Shown piece by piece: positions 24,394 to 25,219 of a stretch of DNA of 64,000 nucleotides; positions within the stretch are counted from its first letter, which is position 1, and every line of letters starts with the position of its first letter. The stretch is taken from positions 1 to 64,000 of the forward strand of contig CANRGJ010000009.1 of the NCBI GenBank assembly GCA_947630175.1, in the 5' to 3' direction. The position numbers and the translations under genes were made by a program. The notes under the pieces were generated by a model. It worked only from the letters and a program-made list of their open reading frames with translations, was not told the origin of the DNA and did not search any database. The DNA comes from an uncultured Ruminiclostridium sp. (GTDB taxonomy: Bacteria; Bacillota; Clostridia; Oscillospirales; Ruminococcaceae).

Positions 24394-24596
24394 TTTAGGT
24401 TTTCCTCCAATAAAAAATTTTGTACTATTATTATAACTAAATAAAGTGTGAAATACAATCAGCATTTTTACCAATATTAAACGTTTACATTTGGTGAAAC
24501 TTTTCCGTTTTGACGAGGTTTGACAAGCCATAGGCGAAATGATATAATAAAAACGTTGGTCACACAACTATCCCTCTTGAAGGGAGGTGATATTTC

Positions 24597-24695
24597 GTGA
24601 CATTAGAAGAAGCGGTCTTTTCTTTTGTTCTTTCCGTTGTCGCAAGTGTGGCTGCAAACTACATATACGATTGGCTCAGCAGAAAGAAAAGGTGA
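24597..24695 (+). CDS. Candidate type I toxin peptide 2, MTLEEAVFSFVLSVVASVAANYIYDWLSRKKR (32 aa)
   Basis: TTGACA (24520)-N17-TATAAT (24543-24548), GGGAGG RBS, single TM plus basic tail. Confidence 0.78.
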   Translation: MTLEEAVFSFVLSVVASVAANYIYDWLSRKKR

Positions 24696-24711
24696 CCAAT
24701 ACTGAGCCGTA

Positions 24712-24790
24712 ACAAAACCCCCGAAAGCTGCAACTTTCGGGGATTCTTTTTGTGATAAATCATGACAAGAAGCGGTCGTCTCGATTTGTC
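24712..24790 (-). ncRNA. Candidate antisense antitoxin RNA 3 (cognate to toxin 2)
   Basis: Minus-strand TTGACA (24820-24825)-N17-TATACT (24797-24802); shared terminator 24719-24742; repeated AGAAGCGGTC and GTGATA. Confidence 0.74.
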
Positions 24791-24827
24791 AAATGTAGTA
24801 TAACATATTCCTAACAAAATGTCAAGA

Positions 24828-24900
24828 GGAAAATACCCTCGGACTAGCCCTCCGAGGATATTATCTGGTAATAAGTTGCTTCGTTATGTTCAACTTTCTG
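24828..24900 (-). ncRNA. Candidate orphan antisense antitoxin RNA 4
   Basis: Minus-strand TTGACG (24930-24935)-N17-TATAAT (24907-24912); terminator hairpin 24835-24860 whose single mismatch is a G-U pair only on the minus strand. Confidence 0.6.
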
Positions 24901-25022
24901 TAACGTATTATAGCATAATACCCACAAAACGTCAAGAGCAGATAAATTGACAAGTCATAGGCGGAATGATATAATAAAACCGTTGGTCACACAACTATCC
25001 CTCTTGAAGGGAGGTGAAAGTA

Positions 25023-25121
25023 ATGACAGCTGAAGAAATAATCGTCTCTTTTGTTCTTTCTGTCATCGCAGGTGTGGCTGCAAGCTACATATACGATTGG
25101 CTCGTCAGGAAGAAAAGGTGA
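25023..25121 (+). CDS. Candidate type I toxin peptide 3, MTAEEIIVSFVLSVIAGVAASYIYDWLVRKKR (32 aa)
   Basis: TTGACA (24947)-N17-TATAAT (24970-24975), GGGAGG RBS; paralogue of toxin 2. Confidence 0.78.
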   Translation: MTAEEIIVSFVLSVIAGVAASYIYDWLVRKKR

Positions 25122-25137
25122 CCAATACTGAGCCATA

Positions 25138-25219
25138 ATAAAACCCCCGAAAGTTGCAGCTTTCGGGGGTTTTATTATTTGGTGAAAAATAATGACAAAT
25201 ATAATCGTCTCGATTTGTC
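25138..25219 (-). ncRNA. Candidate antisense antitoxin RNA 5 (cognate to toxin 3)
   Basis: Minus-strand TTGACA (25249-25254)-N17-TATACT (25226-25231); shared terminator 25144-25169; repeated TAATGACA and ATAATCGTCTC. Confidence 0.74.

Follow-up and report, generated by a model that had tools for sequence, protein, structure and literature searches.

The presence of several closely similar small modules next to each other in one chromosome raises the question of how each toxin messenger could be silenced by its own antisense RNA rather than by that of a neighbour. The window (the whole analysed stretch of 64,000 nucleotides from an uncultured Ruminiclostridium sp.) contains, as we read it, three complete type I toxin–antitoxin modules of the par/Fst type arranged in tandem, together with two orphan antisense-RNA genes (Table 1). 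The order of elements in a complete module, rightwards, is a TTGACA-17-TATAAT toxin promoter, a Shine-Dalgarno (SD) leader, an ORF for a membrane peptide of 29-32 aa and a palindromic terminator; the SD-start segment then recurs, followed by a consensus promoter that faces back on the opposite strand. When positions 23090-25310 were scanned for promoters, the top eight matches (11-12 of 12 consensus letters) were the three toxin promoters, the three cognate antisense promoters and the two orphan-antisense promoters, and 14 matches of at least 9 letters were seen in this interval vs. 5.4 expected. The site is chromosomal and adjoins a biotin-carboxylase operon and secreted-protein genes, with no obvious mobile element. 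Three neighbour proteins without a Pfam match (23608-24393, 25308-26111, 26257-26958 (-)), whose genes interleave with the toxin modules, are nearly identical at the C-terminus (the DNA agrees at 86-94% over 145 nt), where they resemble a cell-surface sorting tail.

Table 1. Elements of the three modules and two orphan antisense-RNA genes (positions in the window; promoter scores as consensus letters matched; duplex energies in kcal/mol)
Feature	Position	Strand	Remark
Locus 1 toxin promoter, TTGACA-17-TATAAT	23141..23169	+	consensus 12/12
Locus 1 toxin-side repeat (SD, start, codons 2-7)	23198..23228	+	
Locus 1 toxin ORF, start GTG, MLTSLFSLIVSVVANVISYYICKWTDRNK	23208..23297	+	matches family profile
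Locus 1 bidirectional terminator hairpin	23314..23348	.	
Locus 1 antitoxin-side repeat, antisense-RNA template	23358..23386	-	cognate duplex -39.0
Locus 1 antitoxin promoter, TTGACA-17-TATAAT	23397..23425	-	12/12
Orphan antitoxin 1 (promoter 23548-23520, repeat-like segment 23481-23508, terminator 23436-23467)	23436..23548	-	without toxin
Locus 2 toxin promoter, extended -10	24520..24548	+	12/12
Locus 2 SD leader	24555..24590	+	predicted hairpin pairing SD
Locus 2 toxin-side repeat (end of SD, start codon, codons 2-7), GTGATATTTCGTGACATTAGAAGAAGCGGTC	24587..24617	+	
Locus 2 toxin ORF, start GTG, MTLEEAVFSFVLSVVASVAANYIYDWLSRKKR	24597..24695	+	matches family profile
Locus 2 bidirectional terminator	24718..24742	.	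loop CTGCAA
Locus 2 antitoxin-side repeat, GTGATAAATCATGACAAGAAGCGGTC	24752..24777	-	cognate duplex -44.3
Locus 2 antitoxin promoter, TTGACA-17-TATACT	24797..24825	-	11/12
Orphan antitoxin 2 (promoter 24935-24907, repeat-like segment 24867-24894, terminator 24833-24861)	24833..24935	-	orthologue in sister species
Locus 3 toxin promoter, extended -10	24947..24975	+	12/12
Locus 3 toxin-side repeat, GGTGAAAGTAATGACAGCTGAAGAAATAATCGTCTC	25013..25048	+	
Locus 3 toxin ORF, start ATG, MTAEEIIVSFVLSVIAGVAASYIYDWLVRKKR	25023..25121	+	matches family profile
Locus 3 bidirectional terminator	25137..25176	.	loop TTGCAG
Locus 3 antitoxin-side repeat, GGTGAAAAATAATGACAAATATAATCGTCTC	25181..25211	-	cognate duplex -37.0
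Locus 3 antitoxin promoter, TTGACA-17-TATACT	25226..25254	-	11/12

This arrangement is that of par_pAD1 (Fst-RNA II) and of fst-Sm/srSm from Streptococcus mutans, which also have convergent promoters, a shared bidirectional terminator and a small membrane peptide, and in which the repeats are the site of antitoxin-RNA pairing across the start of the toxin (PMC7472228, PMC3543317). In par_pAD1, antisense pairing at the repeats DRa and DRb blocks the toxin start (PMC7472228); as here, the two direct repeats lie at the SD and start codon and are transcribed in opposite directions, forming the RNA-RNA pairing region (PMC7472228, PMC3543317). Convergent promoters (found also in the relatives that were kept), the shared bidirectional terminator and opposed direct repeats over the translation start are all present. 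A counterpart of the leader hairpin that hides the SD of par_pAD1 (PMC7472228, PMC3543317) is predicted in loci 2 and 3, where the folded 5' region is not clearly more stable than shuffles (z -0.8 and -1.8); the locus 1 leader folds differently. The predicted antisense RNAs fold more stably than shuffles of their sequence do (z -2.9 to -8.6), with the terminator as the main contributor. A small GAAA-loop-like hairpin (GCGAAAGC, GAGGAAACTC), which perhaps has a role in stability, opens the 5' end of the antitoxin RNAs of many relatives. An Rfam 15 scan of the window gave zero matches at the gathering score, and sub-threshold matches (e.g., His_leader) were dismissed since they track terminator hairpins. 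As a positive control, three genes above the Fst cut-off in G635, another genome of the phylum, were found to be arranged likewise, each paralogue having matched repeats of its own sequence. This genome (L239, L242, L243) carries toxins of both kinds, those recognised by the Fst model and those of the present family.

The toxins themselves are less easily placed. The peptides of the family are 27-35 aa long, with one hydrophobic stretch, a charged C-terminus and the core motif S(V/I)xASVxxYYICKWLDR. A profile built from the three window toxins detects one more module in this genome, the fourth (C12), and matches 32 of the 71 genomes of the genus at E<=0.1, often as arrays (six copies in G039:C55, three in G019:C19 and three in G038:C44). 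Two promoter-like hits, C28:7073 and C7:153875, were rejected as modules, being contig ends that share a promoter-rich leader. The wider profile A2 matches 36/300 genomes and 18/95 genera of the family and, across the phylum, 15/400 sampled genomes vs. 3/400 for the NCBIfam Fst model. A motif search based on the toxin subset with YYICKWLD, the alignment of all toxins being too diverse, gave 349 confirmed stretches from this motif alone. Named relatives include Ruminococcus bromii, Butyrivibrio, Hungatella, Sharpea, Veillonella atypica and many Lachnospiraceae MAGs; the one family toxin searched against plasmid and phage collections had no match there.

No toxin of this genome scores above the cut-off of PF13955 (Fst), and none of 18 genomes does so with NF033608 (Fst), which reaches E<=1 in 3/35 members; unlike the toxins of the par_pAD1 family, the present ones have no PxxxG motif. 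The best window toxin scores 19.1 bits against a cut-off of 60 with NF047374 (the C. difficile type I toxin), and toxin 3 scores 14.8 bits against 27 bits with PF13940 (Ldr). Since the toxin stays below the cut-offs of all three kinds of model (Fst, Ldr and C. difficile), it would represent an unannotated sister family. Comparison with the Fst profile by hhalign aligned 20 columns, including the conserved W-L (P 0.00097, probability 22%), the CD_typeI profile matches 16/35 members weakly, with weak Fst and Ldr matches too, and the sole PDB sequence match of the family profile is LdrD (E 0.47). A distant relation to Fst/Ldr toxins is therefore possible. The modules have par/Fst architecture and probably its workings, whereas by curated score the toxin falls outside the Fst, Ldr and C. 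difficile families.

It is conceivable that these genes encode small regulatory or structural membrane proteins under antisense control and form no toxin–antitoxin module. We infer the toxicity of the peptides, the curated toxin models are not reached, and the chromosomal site next to the biotin-carboxylase operon and secreted-protein genes would suit such proteins. This explanation must, however, account for the full par-type architecture, for a peptide of toxin-like size, hydrophobicity and C-terminal charge, for weak profile matches that include type I toxins, and for the way in which modules are lost: the antitoxin outlasts the loss of the toxin, and not the other way round. On balance we regard it as unlikely. 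In the syntenic locus of the sister genome G067, loci 2 and 3 are kept and enclose two extra complete modules; orphan antitoxin 2 is present as well and is thus conserved with its promoter in the sister species. The locus 1 toxin is lost there; its antisense gene and promoter remain (L071, G067:C6, about 4150-4300), and this leftover antitoxin fits the locus 1 toxin of the window best (-39.5). The deletion probably also removed the terminator that belongs to the carboxylase gene upstream, the likely junction being AAATACCC, which is common to two terminators. The promoter of the leftover antitoxin seems to combine parts of the promoters of locus 1 and orphan 1. Loss of the toxin first is permitted by a toxin–antitoxin module; loss of the antitoxin first would not be tolerated. 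The two orphans of the window retain a promoter, a repeat-like segment and a terminator, the ORF being absent, and a search for trans targets in their own genome gave no partner for orphan 1 and no good partner for orphan 2.

The first-pass annotation had pointed to four segments in loci 2 and 3, and all four are read directly at the exact coordinates that it gave. It had also held that the rest of the cassette is common to the two loci, and indeed the SD leader GTTGGTCACACAACTATCCCTCTTGAAGGGAGGTGA is identical in both (its last 30 nt have 2 matches in the window vs. 0 expected) and the homology of the loci extends over the entire cassette (about 310 nt at 83-84%). Its description of the repeats needs a small correction: the two halves match within a locus and differ between loci, but the match is not continuous, being made of two blocks whose spacing differs between the halves. 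The Smith-Waterman score of the repeat exceeds the maximum obtained with shuffles in both loci (40 vs. 32 in locus 3 and 38 vs. 28 in locus 2), and 9/14 of the differing paired columns are matched in both loci. The GTG start of toxin 2 stands opposite an ATG of the repeat, which in the RNA duplex is a G-U wobble.

The computed duplex energies agree with the earlier proposal that the repeats are pairing surfaces, while the specificity of this pair of loci is only partial in one direction. Toxin 2 pairs with antitoxin 2 at -44.3 kcal/mol and with antitoxin 3 at -21.3 kcal/mol; for toxin 3 the values are -37.0 kcal/mol with antitoxin 3 and -29.7 kcal/mol with antitoxin 2. The antitoxin-2 RNA retains GTCTCGATTTGT, which fits toxin 3 too, and cross-pairing is therefore above zero. 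The insulation of locus 2 from locus 3 is thus predicted to be incomplete and asymmetric, toxin 2 being specific and toxin 3 having a fair non-cognate partner in antitoxin 2. The terminator loops of the two loci (CTGCAA and TTGCAG) are mutual reverse complements, and near-complementary terminator stems across loci could allow non-cognate RNAs to meet. The locus 2 terminator of the sister species has the TTGCAG form, and therefore this hairpin was either flipped or doubly substituted.

The same comparison was made across the relatives by pairing the toxin segment from -14 to +36 of the start codon with every antisense RNA using RNAduplex, whose energies disregard internal structure and kinetics; the antisense RNAs were delimited by terminator and promoter alone, and the repeat was not used. 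In the same-genus matrix (n=46, with 8 further hits excluded because the start, promoter or terminator was hard to set automatically), the cognate antitoxin ranks first for 42 modules and second for the other 4, in which the sole better partner is the antisense RNA of the sister-species orthologue. The mean cognate energy of -35.8 kcal/mol is far from the non-cognate value of about -17.1 kcal/mol (permuted mean -17.05, sd 0.70, minimum -19.9 in 10,000 permutations; z about -27). A held-out set started from 125 new hits, a few of which are first-set contigs under public names; structural filters set ahead of pairing rejected 39 and passed 86, of which 84 are distinct. The cognate antitoxin is first in 72/84 of these and second or third in 7, with mean energies of -35.2 vs. 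-15.4, and of the five failures, which were read by eye, at least three (L130, L181, L205) seem to have a wrong automatic start codon. In most of the 130 modules the pairing coverage peaks at -9 to +5 and at +9 to +20 of the start codon, i.e., in two blocks that resemble DRa and DRb of par_pAD1 (PMC7472228).

The genome-wide alignment of homologues that had been proposed as a check indicates that the two halves do not diverge independently; neither this check nor the proposed comparison of cognate with non-cognate pairing, made with RNAduplex in place of IntaRNA, refuted the earlier proposal. There are 226 module pairs with a toxin-core identity of at least 0.65, and 221 of them have differing repeats (identity below 0.9); both crosses are weaker than both cognate pairings in 221/221, although these pairs are not independent, each module recurring many times. 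The clearest single case of concerted substitution is that of the G038:C44 paralogues, in which 3 paired columns differ and 3/3 are matched in the antisense half, compared with 0/3 in either cross. Among 22 same-genome paralogue pairs with a core identity of at least 0.78, the mean identity is 0.87 in the promoter, 0.91 in the leader, 0.69 in the repeat, 0.87 in the core, 0.78 in the terminator and 0.89 in the antisense promoter, and in 21/22 pairs the repeat has a lower identity than either the core or the leader; the Wilcoxon P values (4e-5, 6e-5) overstate independence because the pairs come from only five independent gene sets. In five clear between-species orthologue pairs the repeat identity is 0.91-1.00 and the core identity 0.95-0.98, the repeat being conserved to the same degree as the core. 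The pairing segment is where copies in the same cell part from each other, which goes past the match within each locus that the first-pass annotation had described. This fast divergence fits selection for insulation, which is plausible as its cause, and the earlier reading of the repeats as pairing surfaces for cognate specificity is supported by computation; part of the divergence could come from weaker constraint on the toxin N-terminus.

Alternatively, the halves may be kept alike by gene conversion, the two direct repeats being separated by about 160 nt, with specificity as a by-product and not as the object of selection. Direct repeats on one strand can convert, and conversion would also yield identity within a locus and difference between loci. 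The matching blocks, however, are about 8-14 nt long, differ in spacing between the halves and have unmatched letters between them, and interrupted blocks of this length are short for homologous exchange. Moreover, some of the residual mismatches are G-U wobbles (the GUG of toxin 2; a G to A change of locus 3 relative to the sister species), which is what maintenance of RNA pairing would produce. We therefore consider gene conversion very unlikely as the explanation. A fresh duplication of the start segment at the birth of each module, so that the halves match as young copies without co-evolution, would fit the strong repeat differences among distant modules but is highly improbable given that the homology between loci 2 and 3 extends to either side of the antitoxin repeat, that the repeats show no decay in sister-species orthologues, and that the close paralogues of G038:C44 differ only at a few matched positions.

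The reading that we prefer, and hold with considerable confidence, is that each locus is a chromosomal type I toxin–antitoxin module of par (Fst-like) design whose cognate identity lies in the variable repeat, so that modules coexist with limited cross-silencing. A strong promoter would produce the toxin mRNA, the leader hairpin of which would hide the SD, and the convergent promoter would produce an antisense RNA of roughly 80-95 nt ending at the same palindromic terminator. Because the start segment is repeated between the terminator and the antisense promoter, this RNA would carry the complement of the toxin start; it would pair with its own toxin mRNA from the 3' part of the SD through the start codon to codon 8 and so block translation of the one-helix membrane peptide. 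Cognate identity would lie in the variable two-block segment, while the leader, promoters and toxin core are common. A change in one half is mirrored in the other, with same-genome paralogues diverging fastest at this place, and it is these matched changes and this fast divergence that would allow several modules to coexist with limited cross-silencing. The architecture, the specificity of pairing, the concerted change and the faster divergence of paralogous repeats are results of computation, whereas transcription, toxicity, the block of translation and selection as the driving cause are inferred from them.

The principle of repeat-based cognate pairing is known from par_pAD1, and cognate protection is known from other type I systems, and neither is new; what is added here is the scale, the contrast of paralogues with orthologues, and the toxin family. 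The present modules differ from the par_pAD1 family in forming chromosomal tandem arrays with mutually specific copies and orphan antitoxins. The CD2517.1/RCd8-type modules of Clostridioides difficile (NF047374) also combine a small membrane toxin with an overlapping, convergent antisense RNA and occur in multiple copies, and cognate-only protection has been demonstrated for such homologous modules (PMC6563280); their toxins are, however, 50-53 aa long with a long complementary region (PMC6563280), compared with 27-35 aa and short repeat-based complementarity here. Ldr/Rdl of Escherichia coli belongs with Fst to the Fst/Ldr toxin superfamily, the regulatory mechanisms of the two subfamilies being called distinct (PMC7472228).

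The specificity of paralogous antisense pairs is usually argued from few tested pairs. The approximately 130 mostly unannotated gut-bacterial modules described here, whose toxin family is missed by current Pfam, NCBIfam and Rfam models, span arrays of up to six copies side by side as well as sister-species orthologues, and they allow cognate recognition to be deduced from short paired stretches, which opens the evolution of RNA-RNA specificity to direct tests through swaps of repeats of about 30 nt. Through its private repeat pair, a toxin messenger is expected to be repressed chiefly by the antisense RNA of its own module. We tentatively suggest, as a possibility that is somewhat less than even, that after tandem duplication positive selection for insulation drives the 30-nt pairing segment, and with it the toxin N-terminus, apart until the pairs are mutually blind, and that surviving orphan antisense genes serve as immunity against incoming copies. 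If this is true, type I arrays would be a natural experiment on the evolution of RNA-RNA specificity.
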